From assembly GCA_017625565.1 (NCBI GenBank), contig JAGAKN010000004.1, positions 1 through 64,000 on the forward strand: 64,000 nucleotides of DNA. The letters are read 5' to 3'. The translations under genes and the position numbers were made by a program. Numbering within the stretch: position 1 is the first letter of the stretch; each line of letters begins with the position of its first letter. The notes under the pieces are model-generated. The model was not told the DNA's origin and made no database searches. It worked only from the letters and a program-made list of their open reading frames with translations. This stretch comes from Clostridia bacterium. GTDB taxonomy: Bacteria > Bacillota > Clostridia > Christensenellales > Borkfalkiaceae. Of the stretch, positions 50,546 through 59,014 are shown in pieces.

Positions 50546-50577
50546 TCCACTGTCATAGCCAGTGGATTTTACTTTTT
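50546..50577 (+). terminator. Terminator of the dnaA-mnmG unit
   Basis: TCCACTG / CAGTGGA stem with a TTTTACTTTTT tail just after the mnmG stop. Confidence 0.7.
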
Positions 50578-50588
50578 GGGCATAGCCT

Positions 50589-50789
50589 TGTCATACCAAG
50601 CGTAGGCCTTAGCCGTAGTCAAACATATCGCAGCTCTGTCATTTCGAGCGTAGCAGCTTTGCTGCGAAGTCGAGAGTATCTCGGCTTTGTCATTTCGAGC
50701 GTAGTCGAGAAATCTCTTAGATACGCTCCATTCGCTTCGCTCAGTCGGTATGACAAAAGGGACGATTTCTTCGCTCAGTCGGTATGACA
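50589..50789. repeat. Interspersed palindromic repeat cluster (TGTCATTTCGAGCG family)
   Basis: TGTCATTTCGAGCGTAG occurs exactly at 50637 and 50688. The opposite end TCGCTCAGTCGGTATGACA occurs exactly at 50737-50755 and 50771-50789. The units are imperfect inverted repeats with TGTCAT and ATGACA ends, and the right-hand end is duplicated. A minus-strand reading of this stretch is an artefact of the repeat. Such elements are scattered in many uncultured genomes; no transposase is present, so they are probably non-autonomous. Confidence 0.8.
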
Positions 50790-50833
50790 TTCCTGCCCAT
50801 CGTGCCGATCGCGTGGGTTTACTATACAACATA

Positions 50834-50879: not shown

Positions 50880-51485
50880 TCAGTTCAAAAGCTCCGTTTT
50901 CTTTTTATCGTACTCTTCTTGCGTAATCCCGTCTTGATCCAACAAGGACTTGTATTTTAAAAGCAACTCGACGATTTCCGCTTCTTTTAGACATATAACG
51001 GTGGGTTCAAACGTTTCTTTTGTGTTCTTCTCAATTGCAAAATATACAATTGCCTCTGCCACCATCAAAAGAAAAGGCCAATACGTTTTCGTGGTGAATT
51101 CGCGGTCGCTGTACCCATAGTAGTCAGTTATCTCTCGACTCAATATAAATCCGTTTATCATATAGACTGTTACCAAAATAACATTTATGATTACGCAAGT
51201 CGTGAGCAGATATTGTAATTTTTCGTGCTTGTTATATGTCAGATATCCCACGACTGCAATCTCGCCAACCCCTACAAGCAGCATCAAAATATTGAAAATT
51301 CTCAACCATTCCGAGCAATAAATTCTCTCATCAAGTTTCCACCCGTTCATTATTTCAAAGCCGTTTAATTTCAAGCTATAACCACTATCTTTCCTATATT
51401 CAAACATATTAAAGCACAATGCCAAGACAACAAGGATCGCCGTTGCCAAAGCTATAAGTAAGGTTGCTATTCTTTTTTTTGCCAT
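50880..51485 (-). CDS. Four-span membrane protein with C-terminal SHOCT domain
   Basis: A 201-residue protein. About four membrane spans occupy residues 5-160, with a short extracellular loop (YRKDSGYSLKLNG) after the first. The C-terminal stretch LLKYKSLLDQDGITQEEYDKKK is a SHOCT domain, a short helical oligomerisation module. No function is known. The start at 51485 (MAKKRIATLL) has AGGAG upstream and removes a 59-residue, poorly conserved extension of the longer frame. It is AT-rich and has its own promoter at 51522-51550. Confidence 0.7.
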   Translation of the reverse strand: MAKKRIATLLIALATAILVVLALCFNMFEYRKDSGYSLKLNGFEIMNGWKLDERIYCSEWLRIFNILMLLVGVGEIAVVGYLTYNKHEKLQYLLTTCVIINVILVTVYMINGFILSREITDYYGYSDREFTTKTYWPFLLMVAEAIVYFAIEKNTKETFEPTVICLKEAEIVELLLKYKSLLDQDGITQEEYDKKKTELLN

Positions 51486-51521
51486 AATTTTTCTCCTATT
51501 GCCTATCTCTATATGATGATT

Positions 51522-51550
51522 ATTATATATTTTCTCTAAATATAAGCCAA
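51522..51550 (-). promoter_or_regulatory. Promoter of the SHOCT-domain gene
   Basis: TTGGCT (51545-51550, minus), 17 bp, TATAAT (51522-51527). Confidence 0.65.
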
Positions 51551-51568
51551 GTGTTTTATAAAAATTGC

Positions 51569-51602
51569 GTATAGATCTCGACGCAACATTCACGATGACA
51601 AA
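51569..51602. repeat. Degenerate single copy of the TGTCAT-type repeat
   Basis: The stretch reads AGATCTCGACGC and ends CACGATGACA, a decayed relative of the element at 50589-50789 in the opposite orientation. Confidence 0.45.
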
Positions 51603-51616
51603 ACAGTATGGCAATT

Positions 51617-51655
51617 CACTCAAAACCGCGTTGCAAAACAATGCGGTTTTGAGTG
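51617..51655. terminator. Hairpin downstream of the duplicated lipoprotein gene
   Basis: CACTCAAAACCGC / GCGGTTTTGAGTG stem of 13 bp close after the lipoprotein stop; the T tail is weak. Confidence 0.5.
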
Positions 51656-51663
51656 TACTCATT

Positions 51664-53129: not shown

Positions 53130-54062
53130 TTATTCGTCAAAATTATACTTTTCGGAAAGTACGTATTTGGGACGGTTTTGTACTTCGCGATAGATCATCG
53201 CCGTGTGCATATTCGCCAAACCTTGGCACACGAGCAGGATCGCCCCCAACATTCCCACCGTCGGGAACAACCAAGCCACCAAGCCCCCAAACCATACGTT
53301 TAAGCACGATAAGACGATGAACGTTATCAAGCACGCAAAACTGCAAAATCCCAAAAGCAAGCCAAGTTTTATCGGCAAAGTCAACGTATAATCGGTGTTC
53401 GGGAAAATCCCCGATTCCGCGAGTTTGACCATCTTCTTCAAGGTATAATGCGTTTCCCCAGCCACCCGTTCGGGACGGTCAAATTCCACCTGTGTTTGCT
53501 TAAAGCCTACCCAAGCGACTTGCGCACGCAACAAACGGTCGTGTTCGTTCATGGAAAGCAACACGTCCACGACCTTGCGATCATAGAGTTTAAAATCCCC
53601 CGAATCCGCCAAGATTTCCATACCCGTTATTTTACGGGTAAAGCGGTAAAACAGCCTTGCCGTCGCTTTTTTAAACCACGTCTCGCCCTTTCTCTTACGG
53701 CGTTTACCGTGGACGACTTCATAGCCTTCTTTCCATTTTTCAATCATTTCCATCGCAACTTCAGGCGGATCTTGCAAATCGGCGTCCATGGCAATCACGG
53801 CGTCGCCACTTGCTTCCTTCAACCCGCAAAGTAGCGCGGCTTGTTGCCCGAAATTACGAGAAAAATGGCAAACTTTTACCCGTTTATCTTTCTTCGCCAA
53901 CGCAAGCAAAACGTCTTTCGTCGCATCCCTGCTACCGTCGTTTATAAATATCAGCTCGTAATCTTCCTGCAAACTTTCCATCATCGGCGTGACGGCGTCG
54001 TAAAAAAGCCCCAAGCTCTTTTCTTCATTATATGCAGGTACGATAATCGAATATTTCGCCAT
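53130..54062 (-). CDS. GT2 glycosyltransferase, DPM1/GtrB-like
   Basis: A 310-residue membrane glycosyltransferase. The GT-A domain (about 1-230) shows SIIVPAYNEEKSLG, FINDGSRDATKDVLLALA and the metal DxD-type site AMDADLQDPPE (about 92), and FKLYDRKVVD near 165. Two C-terminal spans (about 225-295) are typical of GtrB/DPM1 enzymes that transfer a sugar from NDP-sugar to undecaprenyl phosphate. The start at 54062 (MAKYSII) fits the family; an upstream ATG adds four residues. It is followed by the duplicated lipoprotein gene. Confidence 0.9.
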   Translation of the reverse strand: MAKYSIIVPAYNEEKSLGLFYDAVTPMMESLQEDYELIFINDGSRDATKDVLLALAKKDKRVKVCHFSRNFGQQAALLCGLKEASGDAVIAMDADLQDPPEVAMEMIEKWKEGYEVVHGKRRKRKGETWFKKATARLFYRFTRKITGMEILADSGDFKLYDRKVVDVLLSMNEHDRLLRAQVAWVGFKQTQVEFDRPERVAGETHYTLKKMVKLAESGIFPNTDYTLTLPIKLGLLLGFCSFACLITFIVLSCLNVWFGGLVAWLFPTVGMLGAILLVCQGLANMHTAMIYREVQNRPKYVLSEKYNFDE

Positions 54063-54092
54063 ACTTTTTCTCAACTTTGTGATATTTTCTTT

Positions 54093-54121
54093 ATTATACT
54101 ATATTTTTGTTTTCTTGTCAA
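54093..54121 (-). promoter_or_regulatory. Promoter of the GT2-lipoprotein pair
   Basis: TTGACA (54116-54121, minus), 17 bp, TATAAT (54093-54098). Confidence 0.8.
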
Positions 54122-54153
54122 CTGCAAAGAGAATGTTTTAGCGAGAATGCGAA

Positions 54154-54190
54154 CCCGCCCTGCCGAAAAACGGCAGGGCGGGGAAGTTTT
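54154..54190. repeat. 37-bp direct repeat, copy 1 (terminator hairpin)
   Basis: A CCCGCCCTGCCG / CGGCAGGGCGGG hairpin identical over 37 bp to 56870-56906. It lies after the lipoprotein gene 54230-54955. Unlike copy 2 it has no T tract on the minus strand, so it is a poor terminator for that gene. Confidence 0.85.
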
Positions 54191-54229
54191 TATTACGTTT
54201 ATCTTCTACTTTTAGACCTTTCAATGCTC

Positions 54230-54955
54230 TCAATACCAATAAGGATTTTTTTCTTGTTTTTTCTGTTCTTGTAGGAAATCAGAATATTCGGGCGAAATTA
54301 AAATATAATCCTTAAAGCCATGCGCATAATACATGTGCAAATCGCCCACAAATCCTACCGTTTTATAAGCTTCGCGAGATAAAATTTTTTGCTCGCACGC
54401 TTTCTCGTAATTCTCTACATCATTTAAAGGATCTTTGACCATATATGCGTTATATATTTGGAGTAATTCTCCATTCTCCGTTTCCACGGCAAGAATACCC
54501 CACCCGAAATATTTTTTCGCCTTCACGTATCCCAAAGTCCAAACCGGACTTCTAATCAAATGGCAGTCTAAGCTTTCGTAACTATGAGCTCCAAAATAAT
54601 ATTCATCGTTTAATATTACCCCAATGATATGTTGATAACGTAATCGCGGATCTTTAAACGACAAAGTATAATCCACCAAGAAATATCTCGGTTGATCGTA
54701 ATCGAACGAATAGAGTATTTCTACGTCGATATCCAATAAAACTCCGTGCTCTATCATATCCGCGCGCTTTTCTTTTATCCGTTCTTCAATCCGAAATCGA
54801 TGCTCCGTTTCCGTATACTTCGATATATCATTCTCAAAATCATAGCGTTCACCAATAACCCTACTTTCCTCTGATTTCGCCGTACAGGAAAAGGTAATCA
54901 AAAGACTACAAACGCTTAAACAAGCCAAAACCAATTTTTGAAACACCTTTTTCAT
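54230..54955 (-). CDS. Lipoprotein partner of the secreted protease
   Basis: A 241-residue exported protein with a lipoprotein signal (MKKVFQKLVLACLSVCSLLI, ending ITFSC; lipidated Cys near 24). The mature part is hydrophilic, Tyr- and Asp-rich, and matches no family I know. It starts 19 bp after the protease stop, which indicates an operon, and it shares that gene's AT-rich composition. By analogy with streptopain and its adjacent inhibitor it could protect the producer or help the protease fold; that is inference only. Confidence 0.65.
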   Translation of the reverse strand: MKKVFQKLVLACLSVCSLLITFSCTAKSEESRVIGERYDFENDISKYTETEHRFRIEERIKEKRADMIEHGVLLDIDVEILYSFDYDQPRYFLVDYTLSFKDPRLRYQHIIGVILNDEYYFGAHSYESLDCHLIRSPVWTLGYVKAKKYFGWGILAVETENGELLQIYNAYMVKDPLNDVENYEKACEQKILSREAYKTVGFVGDLHMYYAHGFKDYILISPEYSDFLQEQKKQEKNPYWY

Positions 54956-54974
54956 TCTTGCCCTCCTTTTATTC

Positions 54975-56762
54975 TCATTTCGTTTCTAAAACTTCCTCCC
55001 CTGTATTTAAAATGATAAACTCACAGTCCACCTGTCCACATAAAGCACAATACGTTGTCCCTGGCTTTTGTACGTGATCTTCAGGTTCTTCATATCCACA
55101 TTCAAGACATATTTTGCGGTGTTGTCTCGATGAAAGGGGCAAACGCCCAAAACGATGAAAATCTACAACTTGATACCCACAACTGCATGTTTCATAATGA
55201 TAAATAGTATCTCCCGCTCCTTCATTTTCTTCTGATTTTTTTACTCCCCATAAAACCGCCATATGAGCCGATGTAGTTCTTGTTCTTTGACAAATTGAAC
55301 ATTGTAGTACATGCGGATTATTACGATAAGGTATTTCATTGCTATGTATATGAGAAGTTGTTAAGATTAAGCAATCGTTTACCCAAGCTTCGTTCACCCA
55401 ATAATGCGTACTACTAGATTTCCAACCATAATGTCCTATAAAACCATCAATGATTTGCCCGTTATAATTGATTGTCTGTGTGCCATAAACAACTATCTGG
55501 TGCCCACCCGGCGCATAATAAGCATTTCCATTTTCATCTTCTTTTAAGCTATATGTAGTAATACTTGTTAACACAGGATAATCATTAACAATTGCTTCAG
55601 CAATCTTTTGTTTTGCTTCCGTGGAATTTGAATAGTATTCCATTGTTATCTGATCTATTACACTATCGTCCACATAATCATCAAAATACATTTCAAGGCC
55701 TAACCACAAATCTTGAGCATTTGCTCCTGCCCCGTCGGGATCTATATATTCTAACATTTTCCCATAAAACGTGCCTGTTTGATCCACGAGTGTTAGCATT
55801 CCATGAGGTTGGGGAATATACGTAGTGCTCATTGTTTCATGAGCATACGGCGTTTCCAACCAATCCGCACGGCTTTTGGTTTCATCTTGGAAAAGAAAGT
55901 CCGAATGCGTAATCAAACGCCCGTCCTTCGCCCAATTCATATACCCTAACAATAACGTTGCTGCAACGGTAACACACGTTCCTTCCACATTATCCGCATG
56001 ATCTTCTAAATCGATAAAATACTCCTTATCTTCAATATATTGTCTACTTACTACTGTAAGTTCGTCTGCGTCAATTGCATCTGCACCCGTTGGACCAGGA
56101 TCGCCAACAATTATCACTGAATTATCTCCCACGCTATTCGACAAAGCATTAATCATTAAATCGGAGCTTGTTGCACTTACCGTTTTAATTGCTTGTTCTT
56201 CTTTTTGAAGCCGTTCCTGTTCTTGTCGTTCTAACCGTTCGGCTTTGTCTTGTTGTATCTTGATTTGCAGTTTTGGAGCAATTTGCGCCGCTACTTCTTT
56301 GTCAAAGGCTTTTCCTGTATAGATATTTTCTACTTGTTCGCCTTGTTTACGATAATAATTTGTCGGTCCACCATAATATACGTAAGGATTATCTCTTATG
56401 TTTCCAAACGGCGACGAATTGTATTGGCTAAATTCGATAAGTTCTAAATCCTCCTTTTGAAAAACCGCGTAACCATTTACCCCACGTGTTACCAAAACAT
56501 AATCGGCTGCCCCATCTAACCCCATTAAATCATACGCTTTTATCGTCTTATTAAGGGATTCTAATTTTTCAGCATCTTCTTTCTGTTCTTTTTCCGTTTT
56601 ATCTCTGGAAACTGCTTCATAGGAAAACAGTTGTTCCGCATACTTTTCCGCAAGTGCAAGTTGCGGATCTTTTTTTACGGCAGAGCCGATTACTACCGTA
56701 AAACCCAACGTCAAAATGCTGCTTAACACCAACGCTACTGTTCTTCTTGTTCTTTTCATCAT
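54975..56762 (-). CDS. Secreted papain-like cysteine protease with Cys/His-rich C-terminus
   Basis: A 595-residue protein with an N-terminal signal peptide or anchor (about residues 6-28). A propeptide-like region follows (about 100-130, GVNGYAVFQKEDLELIEFSQ and NSSPFG, as in streptopain-type precursors), then a Glu/Gln-rich coiled coil (about 165-195). The catalytic domain shows GTCVTVAATLLLGYMNW (nucleophile Cys near 262) and GGHQIVVYG with IDGFIGHYGW (His near 418), in the style of C10/C39-like peptidases. The C-terminal 120 residues hold HIHS, CSIC, CSCG, CLECGYEE and CALCG motifs, a possible metal-binding module. The family assignment is tentative. A strong AGGAGG RBS and a consensus promoter precede it. 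Confidence 0.68.
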   Translation of the reverse strand: MMKRTRRTVALVLSSILTLGFTVVIGSAVKKDPQLALAEKYAEQLFSYEAVSRDKTEKEQKEDAEKLESLNKTIKAYDLMGLDGAADYVLVTRGVNGYAVFQKEDLELIEFSQYNSSPFGNIRDNPYVYYGGPTNYYRKQGEQVENIYTGKAFDKEVAAQIAPKLQIKIQQDKAERLERQEQERLQKEEQAIKTVSATSSDLMINALSNSVGDNSVIIVGDPGPTGADAIDADELTVVSRQYIEDKEYFIDLEDHADNVEGTCVTVAATLLLGYMNWAKDGRLITHSDFLFQDETKSRADWLETPYAHETMSTTYIPQPHGMLTLVDQTGTFYGKMLEYIDPDGAGANAQDLWLGLEMYFDDYVDDSVIDQITMEYYSNSTEAKQKIAEAIVNDYPVLTSITTYSLKEDENGNAYYAPGGHQIVVYGTQTINYNGQIIDGFIGHYGWKSSSTHYWVNEAWVNDCLILTTSHIHSNEIPYRNNPHVLQCSICQRTRTTSAHMAVLWGVKKSEENEGAGDTIYHYETCSCGYQVVDFHRFGRLPLSSRQHRKICLECGYEEPEDHVQKPGTTYCALCGQVDCEFIILNTGEEVLETK

Positions 56763-56802
56763 TAAAACCTCCTAATATTTTCCAAGTGCTACTTGTGATC
56801 GG

Positions 56803-56831
56803 ATTATATCACAGGTTTTACCATTTGTCAA
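56803..56831 (-). promoter_or_regulatory. Promoter of the protease-lipoprotein pair
   Basis: TTGACA (56826-56831, minus), exactly 17 bp, TATAAT (56803-56808) with extended TGA. Expression should be strong. Confidence 0.85.
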
Positions 56832-56869
56832 TAGGTAAAAATAAAAAACTTTCATAGGTACAACAAAAC

Positions 56870-56906
56870 CCCGCCCTGCCGAAAAACGGCAGGGCGGGGA
56901 AGTTTT
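56870..56906 (-). terminator. pnp terminator; 37-bp direct repeat, copy 2
   Basis: The same 37 bp as 54154-54190. Here the minus-strand stem is followed by TTTTGTTG, just after the pnp stop, so it is a true terminator. Confidence 0.85.
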
Positions 56907-56914
56907 GTATTCGA

Positions 56915-59014
56915 TTAGTCCATCTTTTCAAGCAATTTCAGGTCGATACCCTTTTCGCCGATCTTGATGATTTCTACCTTGACTTTGTCGCCAATATTGA
57001 GCACGTCTTCTACTTGGTTAACGCGTTGTTCGGAAAGTTTGGAAATGTGTACCATACCGTCTTTACCGGGCGCAAATTCTACAAATGCACCGATCTTGGA
57101 AAGGATACGTACGACTACGCCAACGAACATATCGCCAACTTCGGGATCGTGCGCGATGGATTGAACGATTGCTTTCGCGCGTTCCGCGTTTGCAACGTCG
57201 CCGTAGCAAGCGATACAAACCGTTCCGTCTTCTTCGATGTCGATCTTCGTACCCGTTTGTTCGATGATCTTATTGATCACTTTTCCTTGCTTACCAACAA
57301 CATCGCCGATCTTTTCAGGATTGATCTTGAACGTGATGATCTTGGGCGCGTATTTGGAGAGTTGGGAATTGACTTCAGGGATACATTCGAGCATCTTACC
57401 CAAAATAAATCTTCTACCTTCTTGCGCTTGCGCAATCGCGTCGAGCATGATTTGTTCGGAAATACCTTTAATCTTGATATCCATTTGGATTGCCGTGATA
57501 CCCTTTTCCGTACCTGCAACCTTAAAGTCCATATCGCCAAGGAAGTCTTCCAAGCCTTGAATGTCCGTCATGATCACGTACTTGCCCGTTTCGGGATCTT
57601 TGATAAGCCCCATCGCACAACCTGCAACCGGCGCTTTGATAGGCACGCCCGCGTCCATGAGCGCCATCGTCGAACCGCAAACGGACGCCATCGACGACGA
57701 GCCGTTGGACGACATAATGTCGGATACCACGCGGAGCGCGTACGGGAATTCGTCCGGGGACGGAATTACGGGAACAAGCGCGCGTTCTGCCAACGCGCCG
57801 TGGCCGATTTCACGACGACCGGGGCTTCTCAACGCCTTCGCTTCGCCCGTGCAGTAGCCAGGGAAGTTGTATTGATGCATATATCTCTTTTCTTCTTCTT
57901 CGTCAAGACCTTCCATGCGTTGCGCTTCGCCAAGCATACCGAGCGTACAAGTCGTCAACGCTTGCGTTTGACCACGGGTGAATACAGCCGAGCCGTGTAC
58001 GCGGGGCAATACGCCGTGTTCGCACCAGATCGGACGTACTTCTTTCAAACCACGGCCGTCGGGACGAATGCCTTTATCGAAAATCTTCGCGCGAACGATT
58101 CCTTTTACGATATAGTAAATGGAGTCCTTCACTTCGCGCATTTGATCGGGATAAATTTCCGAGAAATGTTCGATGATTTCCGCTTCCGCTTGCGCTTGTC
58201 TATCTTGACGTTCTTGACGATCGAACGTGTCGAGTGCCGCGTAGAGTTTGTCGTAACCGTATGCTTTTACCGCTGCGTCCAATTCTTCAGGAATATGGTA
58301 CAATTCCATTTCCTTCTTGGGTTTACCCGCAACTTTTGCGATTTCTTCAATAAACGCGCAAACTTTTTTGATTTCTTCGTGACCGTACATAATCGCGCCG
58401 ACCATTTCCGCGTCGGTCACTTCGTTCGCGCCTGCTTCGATCATCAAAATCGCGTCTTTCGTACCTGCCAAGGAAAGGTGAATCGCACTCTTCGCTTTTT
58501 CTTCCACGGTAGGGTTGATGATATACTTGCCGTCGATCATACCGACGATAACCGAACCCGTAGGCCCTGCCCAAGGAATATCCGAAATCGAAAGTGCTAC
58601 GGACGAACCGATCATTGCAAGGGGCTCAGGCGCGATATCAGGATCTACCGACAAAGCCGTTGCAACGACGACTACGTCGTTGAAAATTCCCTTCGGGAAC
58701 AACGGACGAATAGGACGGTCGATCAAACGGCTAACCAAAATCGCCTTGTCAGACGCGCGACCTTCTCTCTTTTTAAATCCACCAGGGATCTTCCCTACGG
58801 CGAACATCTTTTCTTCATAGTCTACCGACAACGGGAAGAAATCCATACCTTCTCTTGCTTTTTCCGACATACATACCGTCACGTTTACGGCAGTATCACC
58901 GCAACGTACCAAGCACGCGCCGTTGGCTTGTTCGGCGTATTTGCCGATTTCGATAACGAGTTCTTTCCCCGCATAGTCTGTTTTGAATACTTTAAAATTT
59001 TCTAACGCTGGCAT
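56915..59014 (-). CDS. pnp: Polyribonucleotide nucleotidyltransferase (PNPase)
   Basis: A 699-residue exoribonuclease that degrades RNA phosphorolytically. Two RNase PH-like domains flank an alpha-helical linker; PLSVDYEEKMFAVGKIPGGF and SRLIDRPIRPLFPKG are in the first, and VCGSTMALMDAGVPIKAPVAG in the second. A KH domain (about 560-615, GKQGKVINKIIEQTGTKID) and an S1 domain (about 630-695) end the protein. It follows rpsO, the conserved rpsO-pnp order. A long plus-strand reading frame covers the same DNA and is a shadow. Confidence 0.97.
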   Translation of the reverse strand: MPALENFKVFKTDYAGKELVIEIGKYAEQANGACLVRCGDTAVNVTVCMSEKAREGMDFFPLSVDYEEKMFAVGKIPGGFKKREGRASDKAILVSRLIDRPIRPLFPKGIFNDVVVVATALSVDPDIAPEPLAMIGSSVALSISDIPWAGPTGSVIVGMIDGKYIINPTVEEKAKSAIHLSLAGTKDAILMIEAGANEVTDAEMVGAIMYGHEEIKKVCAFIEEIAKVAGKPKKEMELYHIPEELDAAVKAYGYDKLYAALDTFDRQERQDRQAQAEAEIIEHFSEIYPDQMREVKDSIYYIVKGIVRAKIFDKGIRPDGRGLKEVRPIWCEHGVLPRVHGSAVFTRGQTQALTTCTLGMLGEAQRMEGLDEEEEKRYMHQYNFPGYCTGEAKALRSPGRREIGHGALAERALVPVIPSPDEFPYALRVVSDIMSSNGSSSMASVCGSTMALMDAGVPIKAPVAGCAMGLIKDPETGKYVIMTDIQGLEDFLGDMDFKVAGTEKGITAIQMDIKIKGISEQIMLDAIAQAQEGRRFILGKMLECIPEVNSQLSKYAPKIITFKINPEKIGDVVGKQGKVINKIIEQTGTKIDIEEDGTVCIACYGDVANAERAKAIVQSIAHDPEVGDMFVGVVVRILSKIGAFVEFAPGKDGMVHISKLSEQRVNQVEDVLNIGDKVKVEIIKIGEKGIDLKLLEKMD

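Follow-up and report, generated by a model that had tools for sequence, protein, structure and literature searches.

The intergenic region between pnp and a GT2-family glycosyltransferase gene appears, from the comparison of genomes, to be a site of cargo turnover without mobility genes in a genus of animal-gut Clostridia. In the genome described here the site holds what may be a two-gene operon driven by a strong promoter of its own, encoding a secreted peptidase-like protein and a lipoprotein-like partner. The operon lies between two copies of a 37-bp hairpin, one of which is probably the native pnp terminator and the other a secondary copy of it. We give about an even chance to this explanation as a whole, i.e. 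an exchange site, an operon with its own promoter, a copied terminator, and a peptidase with a surface inhibitor or partner. If true, the locus is a small and clear case in which genes come and go between core genes with no mobility gene present.

Accessory genes between pnp and the glycosyltransferase gene

The window, i.e. the whole stretch of DNA that was analysed, spans 64,000 nucleotides of contig JAGAKN010000004.1. The features at the junction are as follows.

53130-54074, minus strand: GT2-family glycosyltransferase, the conserved right neighbour (Glycos_transf_2, 5.8e-36)
54093-54121, minus strand: consensus promoter TTGACA-17-TATAAT of the GT2 gene, kept in the sister species G044 and at most empty sites
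54129-56849, no strand: segment without DNA similarity to G044 at the locus (blastn), which holds both genes and copy 1 of the repeat, not copy 2
54154-54190, minus strand: repeat copy 1, a second hairpin that follows the lipoprotein gene and belongs to the stretch that G044 lacks
54230-54955, minus strand: lipoprotein-like partner, 241 aa, with a near-invariant Cys24; it matches no known family
54975-56762, minus strand: secreted peptidase-like protein, 595 aa, named from the Pfam matches of its homologues and the invariant Cys263 and His421
56803-56831, minus strand: predicted sigma-70-type promoter upstream of the peptidase gene, TTGACA-17-TATAAT, matching the consensus at 12/12 positions
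56870-56906, minus strand: repeat copy 2, the probable native pnp terminator hairpin, with flanking sequence on either side that aligns to the region downstream of pnp in G044
56915-59014, minus strand: pnp (polynucleotide phosphorylase), the conserved left neighbour, present in nearly all of 57 congeneric genomes

The two core genes are well conserved, pnp being 99% identical between the window and G044, and the GT2 orthologues that adjoin pnp in congeners being 65-89% identical. The first-pass annotation had proposed to look for relatives in which pnp is followed directly by the GT2 gene, and this arrangement is seen in at least nine congeneric genomes (G041, G037, G049, G032, G005, G053, G030, G048 and G020), with a gap between the two genes of 67-247 bp that in most cases holds just a terminator and the GT2 promoter. 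A further genome, G024, has a fragment that is empty-like judging by coordinates. The site is filled in eight genomes including that of the window, and the other seven carry unrelated genes in the pnp-GT2 gap, which we named by reading translations and not by profile-based family assignment:

G044: Gfo/Idh-type oxidoreductase and AraC-type regulator
G019: 246-aa ORF
G017: leucine-rich-repeat-like protein
G029, G001, G055 and G056: membrane proteins of one recognisable type

The shared cargo of the last four congeners suggests one older, partly inherited insertion. A membrane protein of ~245-270 aa lies on the opposite strand at the junction of four congeners (L064-L067), and in G001 the membrane-protein cargo occurs twice in tandem.

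Variable and unrelated cargo between the same core genes, with nine empty and eight filled sites, is what is expected of a hotspot of horizontal transfer. Hotspots are often devoid of mobile elements, with recombination in the core genes that flank them (Oliveira et al. 2017, PMC5635113), and by analogy the pnp-GT2 locus fits this description: differing accessory genes lie between two core genes with no integrase or transposase. It differs from the published hotspots in that the cargo is small (1-3 kb) and varies across the species of one genus, not across strains. The records of these relatives are Clostridia MAGs, many of them from deer and sheep gut. In the tree of pnp and GT2 the window genome stands beside G044, and both are filled, with different cargo. 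Since the tree neighbour is itself filled, the replacement of an older cargo and insertion into an empty site are indistinguishable, and we regard the two histories as equally possible.

The two genes of the window also stand out by composition. The lipoprotein ORF has a GC content of 0.368 and a GC3 of 0.369, the second lowest among the 55 ORFs of the window, and the peptidase ORF, with a GC content of 0.389 and a GC3 of 0.296 (z -4.2), has the lowest GC3 and the most atypical codon usage. The first-pass annotation had described two co-oriented AT-rich genes between the repeats and suggested the comparison of GC and codon bias, which on these 55 ORFs makes outliers of both. Its statement that they match no neighbour in composition goes too far, because an ORF at 50880-51662 is as AT-rich overall (GC 0.364, GC3 0.431; GC 0.356 in its sister-species homologue; no NCBIfam match). 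Close to this ORF, downstream of mnmG, a cluster of short repeats at 50590-50790 contains GTCATTTCGAGCGTAG motifs, including two 40-nt copies that are 80% identical; an ORF at 50569-50832 arises from the cluster and is probably spurious.

Origin of the 37-bp repeat

The repeat reported by the first-pass annotation is exact (37/37): CCCGCCCTGCCGAAAAACGGCAGGGCGGGGAAGTTTT occurs at 54154-54190 and at 56870-56906 and is the longest direct repeat within 15 kb in the window. The hairpin of copy 2 has a 13-bp stem and a TTTTT loop, and RNA folding of the two hairpins gives -32.4 and -29.2 kcal/mol. Read on the strand of the genes, copy 2 runs into the T tail TTTTGTTGTA and copy 1 into TTCGCATTCT, without a T tract, which agrees with the original description; the right flank of copy 1 is TTCGCATTCTCGC. 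No tRNA or Rfam feature was found near the repeats, and the junction sequence beside copy 1 (54130-54153) is unique in the genome and not a repeat family. The hairpin core occurs at these two sites only in the whole genome (1,378,810 bp) when 3 mismatches are tolerated, and elsewhere in the 57 congeneric genomes we found only scattered two-mismatch matches, one per genome in 6 of them. Being present just twice in this genome and without a close counterpart in congeners, the 37-mer cannot be called a common genome-wide terminator, a reading that the first-pass annotation had named as fatal to its insertion model.

Comparison with the sister species indicates which of the copies is native. The DNA around pnp is 90.7% identical to G044. 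Past the final codon of pnp the blastn alignment runs on for 68 nt, takes in copy 2 with its T tail and stops at 56850; it restarts at 54128, immediately upstream of the promoter of the GT2 gene. Aligned pairwise, the hairpin of G044 retains CGGCAGGGCGGG as its 3' arm and TTTTGTTATAC as its tail. Because homology to G044 passes through copy 2 and ends only at 56850, copy 2 is native and copy 1 lies within the foreign segment; copy 2 is thus, as judged against this one close relative, the pnp terminator itself. These alignments show, at the level of sequence, that the segment is foreign relative to the conserved pnp-GT2 junction. The terminator at 56869-56899 is a perfect palindrome in the window and an imperfect one in G044 (L132:7395-7452), where the 3' arm is kept and the 5' arm altered, as would be expected from palindrome correction.

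The first-pass annotation had proposed an insertion that used or duplicated the pnp terminator, and the foreign segment supports the first half of this idea. The repeat as a footprint of insertion is not supported, because the flanks of copy 2 are native by comparison with G044. A site-specific or target-duplicating insertion into the terminator, in which the hairpin would be an att core or a target-site duplication and the recombinase would be lost or act in trans, might seem the natural explanation of a segment flanked by exact 37-bp copies. It also fits the position of copy 1, 32 nt upstream of the -35 box of the GT2 promoter and approximately where the terminator lies in the empty site of G030, and the weak resemblance between the 3' end of pnp and the sequence upstream of copy 1. 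Yet native sequence, not element sequence, directly follows copy 2 in the comparison with G044, which disfavours both a target-site duplication and a pair of att sites. The usual target duplications of transposons are far shorter than 37 bp. Moreover, there are only two ORFs between the repeats, neither of which matches a recombinase or transposase, no direct repeats longer than 11 bp flank the other occurrences of the gene pair that we examined, and the other cargos at the site lack such repeats too. The repeats are thus probably not the ends of a mobile element, and we consider insertion of this kind unlikely. The term cargo cassette, used by the first-pass annotation with the remark that no transposase is present, remains apt for a gene-turnover site without a mobility gene.

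Homologous recombination is a stronger competitor, although we would still bet against it. Incoming DNA that already carried the operon beside the same terminator could have recombined with the chromosome, pnp with its terminator and the GT2 flank providing the homology. The repeated exchange of cargo at one junction of core genes, with no mobility gene there, speaks for it, as do the published hotspots that often lack mobile elements and recombine in their flanking core genes (PMC5635113). The upstream flank of copy 1 weakly resembles the 3' end of pnp (13/1000 under one null and 24/1000 under the other), which would suit a donor-derived copy; the downstream flank showed no such resemblance in the same comparison, and the idea that the repeat reaches further into the end of pnp is suggestive only. 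Against this mechanism, we found no donor genome with such an arrangement. Finally, two genomic contexts could have been misjoined at a shared hairpin, given an exact repeat in a multi-contig draft assembly that is apparently a MAG. Such an artefact is very improbable: the repeat is short and the contig long (102,887 bp), contamination is 0.04%, the native T tail of copy 2 runs straight into the operon promoter, and a misjoin would still require a hairpin-flanked operon elsewhere.

The explanation that we favour is that copy 1 is a secondary copy of the terminator placed behind the lipoprotein gene. It may have arisen by local copying at the hairpin, whether by recombination or by a template switch during replication, or may have come from a donor of the same clade. 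The simplest view is that the second terminator was either made during the acquisition or came along with the acquired DNA. If so, the locus also cautions against taking the direct repeats that bracket an island for att sites, since they can stem from the copying of a terminator.

A recurrent peptidase-lipoprotein module

Homologues of the peptidase were found in 25 of 398 genomes of the family, weak matches included, and homologues of the lipoprotein in 4 of the 57 genomes of the genus, counting that of the window. The pair recurs in four congeners and in several other genera. The two genes are adjacent, 3-92 nt apart, in six genomes (G051, G033, G004, G344, G357 and G298), and a lipoprotein-like ORF lies beside the peptidase in G190/G132 and G055. 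In G004 the reading frame of the peptidase is broken into two ORFs. A scan of the contig collection genome_contigs with the peptidase gave no match.

The genomic location of the pair varies. It lies within ~5 kb of ispG in G051 and G004, and on another contig than ispG in the window genome (ispG on C10, the pair on C19) and in G033 (C17 and C6). The pair thus appears to occupy several loci across genomes, and its repeated co-occurrence shows, as far as gene order can, a recurrent module. Between congeners the peptidase is only 36-39% identical, against ~92% for pnp. The GC content of the pair is ~0.31-0.42 in every case, even in G190/G132, where the flanking genes exceed 0.5. Since the pair is AT-rich even among such neighbours, low GC characterises the module itself and, alone, is no proof of recent import. 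If these observations are right, the accessory genes of uncultured gut Clostridia include an uncharacterised but recurrent protease-lipoprotein pair. A phage origin was rejected, as no relatives were found in viral contigs, and so was a defence system, for which there was no PADLOC match.

Putative function of the pair

The peptidase has an N-terminal hydrophobic signal, a conserved prodomain-like region, a C39/C10-like domain and a C-terminal region rich in Cys and His. Cys263 and His421, invariant in 9 homologues, are the residues expected to be catalytic in a C39/C10-type peptidase. The best members of the family match Peptidase_C39_2 (2.6e-8) and Peptidase_C10 (6.1e-5) in Pfam, and members also match weakly the family of the Spi inhibitor and prodomain (0.039); the protein of the window itself scores 16.7 bits (0.011), under the Pfam cut-off of 24. 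The lipoprotein matched no Pfam, NCBIfam or PDB profile, including those of the staphostatin and Spi inhibitor folds. PDB profile searches returned chance matches only, and single-sequence structure predictions were unusable (pLDDT 41, for the lipoprotein, and 35).

As to function, the likeliest would be that the lipoprotein serves the peptidase as its own inhibitor or partner at the cell surface, because the gene order and domain type resemble those of co-transcribed pairs of Streptococcus, Staphylococcus and Bacteroides. On this view the peptidase would leave the cell as a zymogen, and the lipoprotein transcribed with it would act on the outside of the cell as a dedicated inhibitor for self-protection, or as a partner, as in SpeB-Spi and Bfp-Bfi. 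As expected of a protease-inhibitor pair, adjacency is kept in six other genomes of the family, and three more have lipoprotein-like neighbours. In SpeB-Spi of Streptococcus pyogenes and in staphopain-staphostatin, too, the gene of a secreted papain-fold cysteine protease lies beside that of a small partner and is probably co-transcribed with it, but here the partner is a 241-aa lipoprotein of no known family, its inhibitory role is putative, and the peptidase is C39/C10-like, below the Pfam cut-off. The Bfp/Btp C10 proteases of Bacteroides and their Bfi/Bti inhibitors are encoded by adjacent genes with the same close spacing, within ~35 bp; some of the inhibitors are predicted lipoproteins and some of the protease genes lie on genomic insertions (PMC2873492, PMC3462683). 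In contrast to the pair described here, which has no recognisable mobile element, Bfi and Bti are staphostatin-like proteins of 116-138 aa from a different phylum.

One may go further and suppose a family of exchangeable pairs of secreted peptidase and surface lipoprotein in gut Clostridia, in which the lipoprotein would be the cognate inhibitor or immunity protein and exchange would take place at terminator-bounded intergenic sites without mobility genes. This extension is tentative, and we think it rather doubtful in its full form. Solo and tandem copies of the lipoprotein without a peptidase occur in G033 and G004, which speaks against a dedicated inhibitor or partner but on the extended reading would resemble orphan immunity genes. 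G033 has five lipoprotein homologues in two places on one contig (L127:3574-5093 and L126:109-4271), and its tandem, peptidase-free copies resemble arrays of orphan immunity or inhibitor genes.
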